From a virus, in IMG/VR virus record IMGVR_UViG_3300025030_000060, positions 1-64,000 of that record: a stretch of 64,000 nucleotides of DNA; one strand, written 5' to 3'. The notes under the pieces were generated by a model that worked only from the letters and a program-made list of their open reading frames with translations, did no database searches and was not told where the DNA came from. Shown one piece after another: positions 21,590 through 40,366 of the stretch; the first letter of the stretch is position 1; each line of letters begins with the position of its first letter. The position numbers and the translations under genes are program-made.

Positions 21590-22640
21590 AGGTGGGTGCC
21601 TCCCAGTTCACCCAGTCCCTCCAGTTATTGAACCATGTCGACCCGTTCTTAGGGGGGCGAGTGGGGTTGCGTCTCAGTTCCTCAAGGTAGTTGTCCAGCG
21701 CCTTGTGAATGTCCTTCAGGTCTTCTCCTGTCTGCACCGTCGCACGGAAGTGGCGCTCCGCTTCCTTCTTGCCGTCCTTCGACGGGTAGCGGCTCCAAAT
21801 CCTCTCGAAGGTCTCCTTGCGATTCTGCATCATCTTCAGGCAGCCGACAATGTGTTCCCTGATCCCGTCCTCATCCTTGCGCTTGGCCGGGGTAGTGGTG
21901 CAGGTCTTTTGAATCTGCGCCAGTGCCTCTATCACGTCTACTTGGGGGAAGAGCTTAACCCAGTCGGAAACGTCGGCCTTGGTGATGGGGAACAGGGCCT
22001 CGTCCTTGAGAATGATTTCGAGCGCAACGTCGGCGGTAGCCGACAAGGGTTTGTCTTTAGATGGAGTTGGTAATGGAGATGGGGATGGTAATGGAGATGG
22101 GCTTACTGATTTCGTTAACGGTCCGTTTACGCTTTCTTTAACGTCACCTTGAACGGTTGGTTCAACGACCGTTGCAACGACGTTAAGGTGTTCGTTACCA
22201 TTGCCACGCTTCGGCTTGGTGAATTCTTTAAACTGCTCCGCCGTAACTGCCTCGTAACCTTTAGCTTTAAGCATCTGATACACTTCAGGGTGCAGCTTCG
22301 CCATACGACTGAACCGAGACTTATCACTACGGTCTTCTGCCGAAGAGGCAAAGCCGTTGTGCTCTACCCAGTCATGGAGAATGTGCAAGCCGTCTACAAC
22401 GTCAATGAAGCGAACATCAACGACCGTTTCAACGAACGTTGAAGGATCGTTAGGCCATTCCGCAGCAATAGCGATCTCTTCGGCGTCCATGTCGGCAAGC
22501 TCCCCGCTACTCTTATGCTCCGCAGCAAACAACCACAGCGTCTGGAGGGAGATAACACCTTGCAAGCCCAGCCTACGCTTTAATTTTATGGTTTTGGGAT
22601 GCCTGAAAAACCCCACCTTTAACCTTATATCAACGTTCAT
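21450..22640 (-). CDS. Replisome organiser / replication initiator (396 aa)
   Basis: ATG 22640. N-terminal winged helix (MNVDIRLKVGFFRHPKTIKL, LGLQGVISLQTLWLFAAEH) as in phage replication-organiser proteins; a Ser/Pro hinge (SPSPLPSPSPLPTPS); C-terminal DnaD/DnaT-like part (RIWSRYPSKDGKKEAERHF, WFNNWRDWVNWE). Iterons lie within and just before the gene, as in lambda O. The stop overlaps the DnaC-like gene. Likely binds the origin and recruits the loader. Confidence 0.82.
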   Translation of the reverse strand: MNVDIRLKVGFFRHPKTIKLKRRLGLQGVISLQTLWLFAAEHKSSGELADMDAEEIAIAAEWPNDPSTFVETVVDVRFIDVVDGLHILHDWVEHNGFASSAEDRSDKSRFSRMAKLHPEVYQMLKAKGYEAVTAEQFKEFTKPKRGNGNEHLNVVATVVEPTVQGDVKESVNGPLTKSVSPSPLPSPSPLPTPSKDKPLSATADVALEIILKDEALFPITKADVSDWVKLFPQVDVIEALAQIQKTCTTTPAKRKDEDGIREHIVGCLKMMQNRKETFERIWSRYPSKDGKKEAERHFRATVQTGEDLKDIHKALDNYLEELRRNPTRPPKNGSTWFNNWRDWVNWEAPTYGKGTATGSERKPAETAGTRAAAQGIGTGVGSGDAADFRDKSDEWT

Positions 22641-35461: not shown

Positions 35462-37156
35462 TTAACTGTAAAAGCTGTCGATGTAGCCCTGAATTGATCG
35501 CGCCGACTCCATCAAGGCTTCACCGCCACCACTTTTCTCCTTCTCCTTGGCGGCGGCTTCCTCGGTAGCCTTCTTGGCGGCGGCTTCGGCAAGCTTCTTT
35601 GGGAACATGATCTTGAACTTCGCTTCATCCACTTTCATGATGTCGGTGAACAGGAAGTTCTCGAAGGCGTTTTTGTCGACTCCCAGCCATTCCTGATCCA
35701 TCAGGCCCACGAGCTGCGCCATGCCGGTTGCGAGTTGGACGCGTCCCTCGCGGTTCTCCATCTCTTCGCGCTCCATGGCGGTCGAGACGCTGTTGAACAC
35801 GATGCGGTAGGGCTTCTCGCCGGGGAGGAATGCCTTCTTGAATTTGTAGGCGATATGGATGTCGCAAAGCTGTTCGACGCCCGTCTGTATGGCATGCCGC
35901 AGCATCTGCGCCTTCATGGCAGCCATGACAGAAACACGGAAGAACCCGCCATCGCCAAGCCCCCCGGAAAGGTTCTCGCCAAAACCCAGCAGGGAAGGGT
36001 CGACGCCCAAGGCCCCGCATAGACGGTTGATGTGAAAGGTGATGTCGTTGATCGCTTCGATGTTCGGCGTGCCCTCGATAGTCGAGATGTCCAGCCGCGC
36101 CCGTCCGTCGCCGAAAATGGGGATCAGGTGGTTGATGACGGTCTGGATGAACCCCTTCTTGAGGCTTCTTTTTGCGTTGGCGGTATCCACCCGCTGCATC
36201 TGGCCTGCGACGATGTTCAGATACTGTGCCGCCTTCTGGGGGGAGAGCTTGCCGGTGTTGATGCCGATCATGCGCTCCATCCGGGATGCGTTTTTCCTGG
36301 ACATGTTCAGGGAGAGGATCGCGTTGTTCAGGTCCATCCATGGCCCGTAGGATGTCTCCAACAGGCTCGTCCCGTAATTCTGGGATTCCGTGATGGAGTC
36401 GTCCTCGTAGTTGTCCACGGATAGGTCGAAGATCGAAGCGTCAACGCGGATAGGCTCCAGCAGGGACGGTTTCCACATGGGAATGCGGAACGGCACCATC
36501 TTCCACGGCTCCATAAGCTGAATGCCGCCCGTTTCCGGCTGTTGGTGCGCCGAGACGTAGCCCGCCACGCCCCCGGCCTGCTCGTACATATTGACGAATT
36601 GGGGGTGAGTGTAGTAGTCGGAACGGACCTGCTTGATTCCTACGCCGTCCTCACCGTAGACGCGGGCGAACCAGATGCCGTTGATCCCGGCGTTGTAGGC
36701 CCAGAACTGGCACTGGTCGTTGACTATTTTCTGAATGTTGTTGCGAAGGTCCAGGGTTATCGGGTCGGTTTCATCCCCGATACTCTCGATGGAGATGATC
36801 TCTCCGGTATCGGCCTTGGGGGAAAGCGCATGCGAGATATGCATCTTAATGGCTGAATCAATCGTCGGGTCCGTCGCCATGGTTCGGTAGACGTTGTAGC
36901 GGGCGAGGCGGGCCAAGGGAAGGTCTGTGATCTCCAGTTCGCCATCTTCGCCGGACTCGGAGACCCCGCCAAGTTGAGACCCATCTTCGGCGAAATTCTC
37001 ATAGATTGCGGAACCGGGAGGAAGTGCCAGCCCCCCCAAGTTCCTCGAATCAACCTGTTGGGAACTGGGGAAGAGCTGCTTCCAAAATGGCTTCTTCGAG
37101 TTTTTATCTTCGGATGCGGCCATATACACGGGCTCCATGGTATAGTTTCGCGCCAC
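35462..37156 (-). CDS. Portal protein, T4 gp20-like (564 aa)
   Basis: Dodecameric DNA gate of the capsid. ARYNVYRTMATDPTIDSAIKMHISHAL at 60-90, acidic stem, YGPWMDLNNAILSLNMSRKN, RLDISTIEGTPN and a long helical C-terminus with ELCDIHI. This order fits gp20-type portals of contractile-tail phages. A GTG start at 37156 is preceded by AGTAGG; ATG 37138 is the alternative. C-terminus has EALMESARSIQG, a possible protease site. Confidence 0.8.
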   Translation of the reverse strand: MARNYTMEPVYMAASEDKNSKKPFWKQLFPSSQQVDSRNLGGLALPPGSAIYENFAEDGSQLGGVSESGEDGELEITDLPLARLARYNVYRTMATDPTIDSAIKMHISHALSPKADTGEIISIESIGDETDPITLDLRNNIQKIVNDQCQFWAYNAGINGIWFARVYGEDGVGIKQVRSDYYTHPQFVNMYEQAGGVAGYVSAHQQPETGGIQLMEPWKMVPFRIPMWKPSLLEPIRVDASIFDLSVDNYEDDSITESQNYGTSLLETSYGPWMDLNNAILSLNMSRKNASRMERMIGINTGKLSPQKAAQYLNIVAGQMQRVDTANAKRSLKKGFIQTVINHLIPIFGDGRARLDISTIEGTPNIEAINDITFHINRLCGALGVDPSLLGFGENLSGGLGDGGFFRVSVMAAMKAQMLRHAIQTGVEQLCDIHIAYKFKKAFLPGEKPYRIVFNSVSTAMEREEMENREGRVQLATGMAQLVGLMDQEWLGVDKNAFENFLFTDIMKVDEAKFKIMFPKKLAEAAAKKATEEAAAKEKEKSGGGEALMESARSIQGYIDSFYS

Positions 37157-37502: not shown

Positions 37503-37540
37503 GTTATGCCGCCGGTTGGCGAGATAATAACTAGTTAAAC
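37503..37540 (-). repeat. Degenerate attC-like site f
   Basis: Minus strand: GTTTAAC (37540-37534) a few bases after the stop of the 61-aa gene, then a CTCGC...GCGAG palindrome. No clear GTTRRRY end, so probably a truncated site at the end of the array. Confidence 0.4.
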
Positions 37541-37546
37541 CGACCT

Positions 37547-37732
37547 TTATTCGTCTACCTTCGTCGGCTTCAGGGTTTCAGCTATATCCCGGAACCGCTG
37601 TAGTTCGCGCTGTACCGCCACCTTCGCCCTGTGCCCTAATTGGTTGCGTGGGTCGCTCAAGAGGTACGCAAGCTCGTTTGCCTCGTCCTTGAGCAAGACT
37701 ACTGCCTGATCAATTGCTTCCTTTCTGGTCAT
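37547..37732 (-). CDS. Cassette gene: helical protein (61 aa)
   Basis: MTRKEAIDQAVVLLKDEANE then Arg/Gln-rich helix. ATG overlaps the upstream gene at a shared 16-bp junction. Second gene of a two-gene cassette. Unknown. Confidence 0.65.
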   Translation of the reverse strand: MTRKEAIDQAVVLLKDEANELAYLLSDPRNQLGHRAKVAVQRELQRFRDIAETLKPTKVDE

Positions 37733-37980
37733 GGCCGCACCGCCTCTGCCGCCTTATAGCCGTCGTTTCGACCCTGCCAGTAGTCGCTGTTTTCGTATTC
37801 TGCGACGAGCAACCGCAGTTCCTCATTTTCAGCCGTCAGCCGCTCCACCTCGTGGCTAAGATATGCAGTCCCGCCAGAGGGAGCATCCAGGTACGACCGC
37901 AGCCGCTCCACCTCGGTAATGATCGCCATGACTGTTGGAAAATCTCTGAATATAATCTTCTGTCTTTGCAAGTCCATCAT
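37729..37980 (-). CDS. Cassette gene: coiled-coil protein (83 aa)
   Basis: Ends in AEAVRP, encoded by the repeated junction. VERLRSYLDAP, then VERLTAENEELRLLVAEYE, a leucine-zipper-like heptad region. GGGAGGG site right after the attC-like site e. Unknown. Confidence 0.65.
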   Translation of the reverse strand: MMDLQRQKIIFRDFPTVMAIITEVERLRSYLDAPSGGTAYLSHEVERLTAENEELRLLVAEYENSDYWQGRNDGYKAAEAVRP

Positions 37981-37990
37981 CCCTCCCAGG

Positions 37991-38041
37991 GTTTAACCCC
38001 TCGCTCGTCCGCTGGCGCGGCCAGCTCGCAAACCGTTATCC
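37991..38041 (-). repeat. attC-like site e
   Basis: Minus strand: GGATAAC (38041-38035) containing the TAA of the upstream gene, arms GCTGGC/GCCAGC, and GTTAAAC (37997-37991). 51 bp. Next gene starts 11 bases later with its own GGGAGG. Confidence 0.6.
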
Positions 38042-38557
38042 CTCGAACTCCGGGTTAAAATTCGGACAGGAAAAATCGCCGTGGGTCTGAACCGATCCTT
38101 TGCCACTACCAAACGTGATGTTTAGCCGGAACATTGGCACGGTGTCTTTCCCAAACTCACCGAAAAGGTCGATCATGCAAGTCCGATACTCGCCTGTCAG
38201 CTCTTTAACGTAGTGCATCCCCTGTGAACCCCAGGCTTTGCACTGCCGGCACTTGCCGGTTGCCTCTTCGAGGCCCTCACCGTTGAGGCAACGGGGGATC
38301 TCCGCGCCGATGGTATCCGGTACCCGCCCGCCGCCCTGATCCTCCTGGAAGCACATCACCCTCTCAACCAGCAGTTCGATACTCTTGATATGCTCCGGGT
38401 TAGCACCCAACTCAATGCATTTGTACTTATACGTTTGAAGGGCGGCAGGGACAGCAGCGTCCTTTGCGCAGAGCAGGAGCGAGTCGACCTCTGTGTACTT
38501 CTTGCCGTTCACCGGGTTAAAGGCATGAATCTGGAATTTGCGGTCAATTACGCTCAT
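38036..38557 (-). CDS. Cassette gene: Cys-containing protein (173 aa)
   Basis: N-terminal HAFNPVNGKKYTEVDSLLLCAKD, C-terminal C-x2-C-x19-C-type motif (KCRQCKAWG...RTCMID), then CPNFNPEFEG. Stop codon lies inside the attC-like R box. Possibly zinc-binding; family unknown. Confidence 0.7.
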   Translation of the reverse strand: MSVIDRKFQIHAFNPVNGKKYTEVDSLLLCAKDAAVPAALQTYKYKCIELGANPEHIKSIELLVERVMCFQEDQGGGRVPDTIGAEIPRCLNGEGLEEATGKCRQCKAWGSQGMHYVKELTGEYRTCMIDLFGEFGKDTVPMFRLNITFGSGKGSVQTHGDFSCPNFNPEFEG

Positions 38558-38583
38558 GAATTTTCTCCGTTTTATAGTGCCAG

Positions 38584-38632
38584 GGATAACCCGGCGCTGG
38601 TCCGCTGCGCGGGCAGCTTGGTTGCGTTAAAC
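38584..38632 (-). repeat. attC-like site d
   Basis: Minus strand: GTTTAAC (38632-38626) containing the stop of the 90-aa gene, GC-rich palindrome with GCTGC/GCAGC arms, and GTTATCC (38590-38584). 49 bp. Confidence 0.6.
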
Positions 38633-38899
38633 CAGAATGATTTCTCTTGCGTTAATGGAACAGTTATCGGATATCGGAGAAGTCCCATACCAGCGCAGGT
38701 ACCACTTACCGTTGACGCCCTTGGCTTTCCACATCTTCCCCTCGTAAACTCCCGATGGTATAGACGACGAATACTCGGCCAGAAAATTAAATGTCTTTTC
38801 GGACATCAGCGCGTGAGTGCCGTCAATCTCGATTGCAGACCGATGCGGTTGATTCCAGTACGCGCCCAGAGGGTCTGTCATTGCAGGTATCTCGCTCAT
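38627..38899 (-). CDS. Cassette gene: hypothetical protein (90 aa)
   Basis: MSEIPAMTDPLGAYWNQPHR, then beta-rich WKAKGVNGKWYLRWYG. The 'DPLG..W.QP..  I..D..HALM' pattern is a small phage family of unknown role. Overlaps upstream gene (ATGA). Confidence 0.68.
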   Translation of the reverse strand: MSEIPAMTDPLGAYWNQPHRSAIEIDGTHALMSEKTFNFLAEYSSSIPSGVYEGKMWKAKGVNGKWYLRWYGTSPISDNCSINAREIILV

Positions 38900-39177
38900 A
38901 GCCGCACCGCCTCTGCTTTAGCCATGTCCAGAAGTTCAATGAGCTTTTCGTCAGAGACATCGGCCTTTGCTGCCAAAACTGCAACTACGGCGTGCAGCGC
39001 ATCCCTCTGGACAGTGACCCGCTCCACCTCACCAGAGAGTGAGTTGACCATAGACCGTAACTCCCCGATCTCGCCTTTGAGATCATCACACGCGCCGTGA
39101 GGGCATACCTTCGGAAGCGCTGCCTCAGCCGTTGACCTACCTCTACCTTGATACATGTACCCTTTAGCGTCACCCAT
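38896..39177 (-). CDS. Cassette gene: coiled-coil protein (93 aa)
   Basis: Start after an attC-like site with GGAGGG. CPHGACDDLKGEIGELRS then VERVTVQRDALHAVV heptads; ends in AEAVRL at the 16-bp repeated junction. Unknown. Confidence 0.65.
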   Translation of the reverse strand: MGDAKGYMYQGRGRSTAEAALPKVCPHGACDDLKGEIGELRSMVNSLSGEVERVTVQRDALHAVVAVLAAKADVSDEKLIELLDMAKAEAVRL

Positions 39178-39194
39178 CTCTTCATCCCTCCAAA

Positions 39195-39282
39195 GTTTAA
39201 CCAGCAGGTCGAGGCGACCGAGCCGGTGGTAGTGAGCAGGAGTTGGCGAGAGTTCCCGCGCCTCACCTGCGGTCCGTTAAAC
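39195..39282 (-). repeat. attC-like site c (best example)
   Basis: Minus strand: GTTTAAC (39282-39276, holding the stop of the 53-aa gene) ... GTTAAAC (39201-39195). On the plus strand the arms are GCAGGT-c-GAGGCG (39204-39216) and CGCCTCACCTGC (39259-39270): 12 bp pair perfectly with one extrahelical base, the hallmark of integron attC sites. 88 bp. Confidence 0.72.
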
Positions 39283-39438
39283 CGGCTCCTGGAACCTTGC
39301 TTTTTTTGCAGTCTCTTTGACTACTTCAACGTCCCAAGAGGCACCATCTTCCCCAATTTTACGGATTGCATCCTCTTTCGATTCAGCCTCTATGCAGGCG
39401 GTCTCTTTTATCGTCCTGGTGACTTGATACCAGTTCAT
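39277..39438 (-). CDS. Cassette gene: small protein (53 aa)
   Basis: MNWYQVTRTIKETACIEAES, KEDAIRKIGEDGASWDVEVV: one beta strand-helix-strand unit, typical of small phage or plasmid 'SH3-like' proteins. ATG overlaps the upstream stop. Confidence 0.65.
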   Translation of the reverse strand: MNWYQVTRTIKETACIEAESKEDAIRKIGEDGASWDVEVVKETAKKARFQEPV

Positions 39439-39791
39439 AGCCGCACCGCCTCTGCCTTGCGAGCGTTTTGCATGGTGCTCGCGAAGCAACTGGCTGTCGC
39501 AGCCGTGTTTTCGTAGTGGGTTTGCATGGAGCGCAATGCCCTAGCCAGGGTGCCGTCTTCCGATGTCGAGTGCCACGGCGTTTTCTTGCCGTAGCCGGAG
39601 ATTTTCACTTCGTACTTGGCTTTGCCGTCCTTCTCCCTCCTCTCCACCTGGAGGGTCGAAAGCCTGTTGAATCCACTGCTCTGTATCCCGGTGGCGCGTA
39701 GGTACCCTTCGGGGTTGGACGACTTGTGCACCGTCCAATCGTAGCCGGGCATGATCTTGACCAGTTCTTTTCTGAAATCTGCTGGACTCAT
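39435..39791 (-). CDS. Cassette gene: hypothetical protein (118 aa)
   Basis: FRKELVKIMPGYDWTVHKSS, QVERREKDGKAKYEVKISGYG; C-terminal helix TLARALRSMQTHYENTAATA, ending in AEAVRL at the repeated junction. GGGAGG site after attC-like site b. No family known to me. Confidence 0.68.
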   Translation of the reverse strand: MSPADFRKELVKIMPGYDWTVHKSSNPEGYLRATGIQSSGFNRLSTLQVERREKDGKAKYEVKISGYGKKTPWHSTSEDGTLARALRSMQTHYENTAATASCFASTMQNARKAEAVRL

Positions 39792-39806
39792 TGTTTACCT
39801 CCCAGG

Positions 39807-39854
39807 GTTTAACCAATCGCCGCAGCCATCCGGCTGGGCTCAAAAGCGTTAGGC
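39807..39854 (-). repeat. attC-like site b
   Basis: Minus strand: GCCTAAC (39854-39848, a perfect RYYYAAC that includes the TAA of the upstream gene) and GTTAAAC (39813-39807, perfect GTTRRRY). Inner arms GCC-CAGCC and GGCTG-c-GGC with one extrahelical base, loop GGAT. 48 bp, short for an attC. Confidence 0.68.
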
Positions 39855-40031
39855 CTTTATGTCCTTCACTGTCCCGATAATCTTAATTTTTGAGTGCTCG
39901 CCCCAGCGTGACGTAGCAGTTCCGGTTTCCAACATTTGAGTTCTGATACGAAACGCCTCCCATCGTCTACCAAGACTGAATACGATAAGCAGCACGCCAA
40001 TTACCGCTAAAACAAGTATTGTTGTAATCAA
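39849..40031 (-). CDS. Cassette gene: membrane protein (60 aa)
   Basis: TTG start with GGAGGAGG. MITTILVLAVIGVLLIVFSL is a transmembrane helix, followed by basic RRWEAF and a soluble tail ending KDIKA at the attC-like R box. Unknown. Confidence 0.65.
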   Translation of the reverse strand: MITTILVLAVIGVLLIVFSLGRRWEAFRIRTQMLETGTATSRWGEHSKIKIIGTVKDIKA

Positions 40032-40059
40032 CTTTCCCTCCTCCTAGCCCACTGAAGGG

Positions 40060-40126
40060 CAATAACCAGTGCTCGGACGCCGACCGGCAAACAACGTCGG
40101 ACGGGTCAAGCACATGGCCGTTAACC
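40060..40126 (-). repeat. attC-like site a
   Basis: Minus strand: GGTTAAC (40126-40120) with the stop codon of the 81-aa gene, outer arms GTGCT/AGCAC, inner arms CCGAC/GTCGG, then GTTATTG (40066-40060). 67 bp; end boxes imperfect. Confidence 0.55.
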
Positions 40127-40366
40127 CGATTTTGCCGCCCTCTTCAGCGTCTTCGCCACCTTCGAGGTGATCGCTTCGCGCATGAATTCGGTTTCACCCT
40201 CTCCGGTGATCTCTCGCGCCTTGCTAATTCCCTCATACTCGCCGCAGGTAAAGCGTATCCCTTTGCTGACCTTCAGCGGGTTCTCTTTCCTGTAGTCCTT
40301 CTTTCGGCCCGCTCCCGGTTTTGCACCTCCAAGAGGTTTCCCGTTGGCATTAAATCCTTTTGGCAT
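40121..40366 (-). CDS. Cassette gene: basic protein (81 aa)
   Basis: MPKGFNANGKPLGGAKPGAG then RKKDYRKENPL, a helical ISKAREITG and an RHH/plasmid-mobilisation-like end. The Gly/Lys start 'GGARPGAGRK' is common in phage helix-turn-helix and RHH proteins. Possibly DNA-binding. Confidence 0.68.
   Translation of the reverse strand: MPKGFNANGKPLGGAKPGAGRKKDYRKENPLKVSKGIRFTCGEYEGISKAREITGEGETEFMREAITSKVAKTLKRAAKSG

Follow-up and report, generated by a model that had tools for sequence, protein, structure and literature searches.

Organization of the Locus

The sequence analyzed here (the window) covers the first 64 kb of the 96,554-bp IMG/VR virus record IMGVR_UViG_3300025030_000060. Within 37503-40126 it contains six sites (a to f) with RYYYAAC/GTTRRRY-like boxes and imperfect palindromes, separated by small genes (Table 1; the slash in G/TT marks the crossover point). 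The array is placed between the counterparts of the large methylase (darB-like) and portal (prt) genes of phage P1; in the annotation of the P1 phage MH445380 the large methylase gene adjoins the portal gene. The portal protein of the window shows 33.8% identity to P1-family Prt, and the virus record also encodes DarB-like and ParB-like proteins. Because of these three proteins (P1-type portal, DarB homolog, ParB homolog), the virus is assigned on its gene content to the P1-like phages, and it is probably a phage-plasmid. An Rfam scan of the window gave no match at gathering thresholds, and ARAGORN detected neither tRNA nor tmRNA in the window or in contigs L001, L002, and L003. The relatives compared below are IMG/VR contigs of metagenomic origin.

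Table 1. Features of the array and its flanks in the window
Feature	Position	Strand	Evidence or remark
P1 Prt-like portal gene, downstream of attI	35462..37156	-	Protein similarity
attI-like site (site a), crossover G/TT at 37534/37535; no adjoining intI	37503..37540	+	PWM; shared with L002 and L010
Cassette 1, second ORF, 61 aa, function not assigned	37547..37732	-	ORF call
Cassette 1, first ORF, 83 aa, coiled-coil-like, C-terminal AEAVRP	37729..37980	-	ORF call
attC b	37991..38041	+	R2 22.8 bits, E 0.0019
Cassette 2 ORF, 173 aa, Cys-rich; stop is the TTA of the attC b R' box	38036..38557	-	Relative in L008
attC c	38584..38632	+	R2 22.8 bits, E 0.0019; geometry rule 9.1
Cassette 3, second ORF, 90 aa, phrog_24427 (no function assigned); stop inside attC c R' box	38627..38899	-	
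Cassette 3, first ORF, 93 aa, C-terminal AEAVRL	38896..39177	-	ORF call
attC d, both canonical extrahelical positions	39195..39282	+	R2 31.1 bits, E 1e-5; geometry rule 15.5
Cassette 4, second ORF, ~53 aa with the ATG start; a longer frame with a TTG start extends to 39489	39277..39438	-	
Cassette 4, first ORF, 118 aa	39435..39791	-	Family also in phages with no array seen alongside
attC e	39807..39854	+	R1 23.7 bits, E 0.00098; R2 32.4 bits, E 4.4e-6
Cassette 5 ORF, 60 aa, TTG start, hydrophobic N-terminus; stop inside attC e R' box	39849..40031	-	
attC f, right end of array, weakest site	40060..40126	+	R boxes, paired arms
Resident phage gene, 3' end cut by array; stop now from attC f R' box	40121..40366	-	Longer homolog in L003

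Six genes end at a site, and in five of them the TTA directly after the crossover G serves as the stop codon. A 21-nt repeat, GCAGAGGCGGTGCGGCTATGA, was found at 37729-37749, 38896-38916, and 39435-39455 of the window and also in L018, L010, and L002. The repeat forms the 3' end of unrelated first genes in two-gene cassettes, giving them the same AEAVR tail, and the second gene starts within it; it would be a second joining element, possibly one that works by homology.

Identification of the attC Sites

Two covariance models were used to search the window. R1 was built on 23 attC sites (from bacterial integrons found via IntI relatives, from class 1 cassettes, and the assayed site of phage TJE1), one spacer base being removed from some sites to keep the stem register; a first alignment of 34 rows (A3), in which stem registers were mixed, had been set aside. 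R2 was built on 11 attC sites from other, intI-bearing phages and none from the window; its training sites include sequence relatives of d and b, which are thus not wholly independent of it. R1 gave a single match at E ≤ 10 in the 64 kb, site e on the plus strand, and R2 gave exactly four at the same threshold (b, c, d, and e), each of them on the plus strand and within the array (scores in Table 1). Site f reached 3.2 bits with R1 with the filters off only and had no R2 match in the whole-window search; its boxes, paired arms, and position weakly suggest an attC. The site of phage TJE1 also scored with these models.

A geometry rule, which asks for R boxes and for an extrahelical base ∼8 nt from R'', agreed with the models; models and rule together took the place of an annotation-free palindrome scan that was dropped as too noisy. 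The rule found c, d, and e on the plus strand and nothing on the minus strand of the array. Dinucleotide shuffles gave 0.17 matches per 64-kb strand, vs. three in the 2.6-kb array. In intI-bearing arrays the rule picked 24 sites on the expected strand and seven on the opposite strand. Elsewhere in the window (22136-22188), a lone attC-shaped palindrome of GTTCAACGG-like repeats was scored by the rule on both strands and matched by neither covariance model; it is probably a repeat.

The arm sequences vary between sites and the structure is kept, with R boxes of the RYYYAAC/GTTRRRY type and polarity-setting extrahelical bases. attC b and one attC of L034 are 95.8% identical across 48 nt, and an attC of the site d type is also present in L002, L011, and L018. 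By model, geometry, and homology, we identified the sites as attI and attC sites. The original prediction of an integron-type attC array inside a phage genome was thus borne out by covariance models, a type of check that it had proposed. It had counted five to six attC palindromes: six boxed sites are present, but site a is an attI and not an attC (see below), and f scores too low for both models. It had also described the arms of b and c as perfectly paired except for one extrahelical base, a description that best fits site e (GCC-g-CAGCC/GGCTG-GGC); in b and c the arms are interrupted by small, asymmetric internal loops.

attI Without an Adjoining Integrase

A PWM was made from nine cores of attI sites adjoining phage intI genes. 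Site a exceeded all other window positions (24.4 bits; runner-up 16.7), and the same element was picked in L002, L010, and L008, in none of which intI was found. The earlier statement that the window carries no integrase held for the whole virus record, where no PF00589 (tyrosine recombinase) protein was detected. Because site a matches attI and the record has no PF00589 protein, we classified the locus, as far as its sequence indicates, as an attI platform without an integrase and not as a bare CALIN. The original label of CALIN is correct insofar as the window has an attC array (at least two attC sites) without an integrase, but it leaves out the attI. Compared with a complete integron, the window has the attI (by PWM and homology), no integrase beside it, and cassette ORFs that are all antisense to the attC orientation in which they would be read from Pc. 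With no integrase in the record, current activity of the array would therefore depend on a partner.

Integron Integrases on Phage Contigs

L018 was reached by a pattern search with attC of the site d type; this viral contig encodes a 388-aa protein scoring 361.9 bits against TIGR02249 (cutoff 265). The cutoff was also exceeded by proteins of L034, L036, L037, L038, L068, L043, and L042. Two scans placed 18 viral contigs in this IntI group (48-100% identity), other viral IntI matches (L039-L041 and L047-L049) being left out of the counts. The genome scan added one contig in a bacterial MAG (L068), itself carrying terminase and portal genes. A host-integron origin was sought in that scan and discarded: bacterial IntIs were ≤54% identical, and the one at 54% was L068. 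In a tree of the members then at hand, L033 (the same contig as L018), L034, L036, L037, L038, and L068 formed a clade with support of 100/99. R157, H288, R291, H314, and Y323, which we take to be the tyrosine-recombinase catalytic residues, are invariant in all five aligned phage IntIs. We found no prior report of this clade in open-access papers.

In most members of the group a short conserved element ending in GATAATnAGTAG/TTA or similar lies directly upstream of intI. TIGR02249 integrases beside such an attI occur on viral contigs from the same and from other metagenomes, and in several of them intI is upstream of terminase or portal genes. The IntIs of L018, L034, L036, and L037 have in common a C-terminal extension of ∼45 residues (consensus ...LGLTPAEAAGRIxATAAQGGA), which is absent from L038.

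Polarity of attC and Direction of the Cassette Genes

Extrahelical bases occupy mainly the 5' arm of the attC top strand in 43 of 48 reference sites. In the phage family, 16 of 20 sites show this pattern on the gene-antisense strand; of the four exceptions, at least two seem to result from misalignment at small internal loops. Every R1 and R2 match at E < 1 in the arrays of this phage group is on the gene-antisense strand. The original prediction had oriented the attC sites of the window on the minus strand; the model matches reverse this, the sites running left to right on the plus strand and the predicted cassette genes all running right to left. The breakpoint of the NADAR cassette described below is in line with this polarity. 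Part of the polarity evidence is weak.

A simple, crude ORF caller was used to count orientations in the first 4 kb beyond attI, and in 16 arrays of the IntI group it returned 17 forward vs. 106 reverse ORFs. The same count at 15 bacterial loci with strong attC sites gave 46 forward and 16 reverse ORFs. Contigs of the IntI group show a co-directional run from cassettes to attI to intI, followed in several by terminase or portal genes. No description of this reversed layout of cassettes, attI, and intI was found in open-access papers.

Cassette Content in Related Phages

The comparison of related phages for cassette gain and loss, suggested with the original prediction, found content that differs between relatives. 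L002 is 94% identical to the window across the portal region and has the same attI, yet its cassettes beyond attI differ, and more generally relatives hold attI and flank in common with the window yet carry other cassettes. A NADAR cassette with its attC is nearly the same in L011 and L018 (237/239 identical), and the two contigs diverge directly past the G/TTA of R' in that attC, as expected of a cassette and attC that move as a unit with G/TT junctions. For the window itself, the corresponding sign is the altered content beyond the common attI. The NADAR cassette type is in first position in L037 and in second position in L018. At the right end of the array, the L003 homolog of the 40121-40366 gene is longer; homology stops at GGGT/TAAC, the window copy being cut at the R' box of site f. 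One cassette gene has relatives in phages in which no adjoining array was seen, which suggests that cassettes derive from ordinary phage genes. Two candidate arrays were discarded: in L017 the attC pattern matched only within a GC-rich, coding-like stretch, and in L009 the R'/RBS pattern matched and there was no attC-like site.

Two minor observations concern L002. An identical 27-nt tandem repeat is present at the contig ends of L002 (1-90) and L003 (12480-12617), inside a gene for a Ser/Ala/Gly-rich protein repeat; it probably caused a single phage type to be split into two records during assembly, and L002 and L003 may be one phage type. A stretch of 138 nt in the cassette region (L002:1187-1324) matched tmRNA weakly, at 14.8 bits and thus under the gathering score, and has a tRNA-like 3' half; it is perhaps a reduced tmRNA- or tRNA-like decoy.

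Alternative Explanations

The array could be a CALIN that was captured from a host integron, has the usual orientation, and received its cassettes through the host IntI. Its attC sites are real, no intI is in the record, and phages with host-derived integron pieces are known (PMC9892861), but the phage-type attI, the attC polarity antisense to the genes, and the matching intI on phage contigs with packaging genes make such an origin highly improbable, as does the best bacterial IntI, which is 54% identical and lies on a contig with terminase and portal genes. The original proposal that the host's integron filled the array thus gives way to co-occurring phages with their own IntI as the likelier source.

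Homologous gene shuffling without an integrase, with the stem-loops serving as boundary repeats like the T4-type promoter-early-stem-loops, could be seeded by recurring identical R'-RBS strings (GTTAAACCCTGGGAGG) and by the 21-nt gene-junction repeat. We consider this highly improbable, given that the sites fit attC covariance models, keep the canonical extrahelical positions, vary in arm sequence while the structure stays, and adjoin attI and intI in relatives. That the palindromes are transcription terminators or chance inverted repeats is scarcely credible: the stem-loops are intergenic, but the T-run is absent, the R boxes are strict, the three rule matches far exceed the shuffled background, and the four model matches in the array have no counterpart elsewhere in the window.

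Comparison With Known Systems

attC clusters in phages, including IntI1-competent ones, and a few temperate phages with integrons that include intI have been reported (Qi et al., 2023, PMC9892861). The remark in the original prediction that attC sites in phages are rarely reported was incomplete, such clusters having been published with IntI1 activity assays. The CALINs of the virulent phages TJE1, P12002L, and PH101 (PMC9892861) resemble the window in having small genes separated by attC sites, a bottom-strand attC structure, and no intI. The window differs from them by its attI, the matching intI in relatives, and genes antisense to attC, the attC sites of TJE1 lying on the gene strand. Another P1-family phage with attC cassettes is the P1 phage with class 1 integrons (MH445380; Qi et al., 2023), but its cassettes hold resistance genes and belong to mobile class 1 integrons that have transposase and IS genes alongside, whereas the cassettes of the window are small phage-type genes without assigned function between the darB-like gene and prt.

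The phage lineage has in common with canonical chromosomal and mobile integrons a TIGR02249 IntI, attI at the 5' end of intI, attC sites with R boxes and extrahelical bases, and G/TT cassette junctions. In canonical integrons, however, intI and cassettes diverge from attI, whereas in the phage lineage the cassette ORFs point towards attI, co-directional with intI, and an integron Pc could not read them. In Treponema-type integrons (PMC3607928), transcription of intI heads for attI and that of the cassettes leaves it. intI and cassette genes are co-directional there too, but the phage lineage has the opposite arrangement, its cassettes being transcribed towards attI and its intI away.

Proposed Mechanism and Implications

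The window very likely holds a phage integron without an integrase, made up of attI and five plus-strand cassettes that each end in attC. IntI would be supplied in trans by co-infecting phages that encode it, a host integron being a less likely source. It would use the folded bottom strand of attC, here the gene-sense strand, and cut at G/TT of R', so that cassettes may be inserted or excised at attI or attC. The cassettes would be expressed by read-through from phage promoters with no integron Pc, because all of them, being reversed, point towards the packaging genes on the far side of attI. In most cassettes of the window the TTA of R' is the stop codon, and this stop-supplying TTA would be retained through every exchange.

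Beyond the window, we favor, with some reservation, an integron lineage of the phages' own. Phage IntI and attI would lie near packaging genes, pooled reversed cassettes would join the phage operon, unrelated phages of the same habitat would exchange them, and phages with attI only would use the integrase of others in trans. What this adds to the earlier reports is the phage-borne IntI/attI lineage near packaging genes, the reversed cassettes, and the evidence of cassette sharing among phages of one metagenome set. Homologous or illegitimate recombination is usually credited with phage genome mosaicism. In the present case small phage genes seem to be assorted by a site-specific cassette system that works on single strands, one whose integrase clade, attI, and cassette orientation suit phage operons. 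Phage-to-phage cassette trade becomes directly testable (IntI in trans, G/TT junctions), and the system may serve as bait for phage accessory genes of no assigned function. The layout of an integron can apparently be inverted when expression enters from the other side. L042 and L045, with IntIs ∼43% identical, have clear attC sites and mostly reversed ORFs, and the reversed layout may thus be wider than the IntI clade described here.
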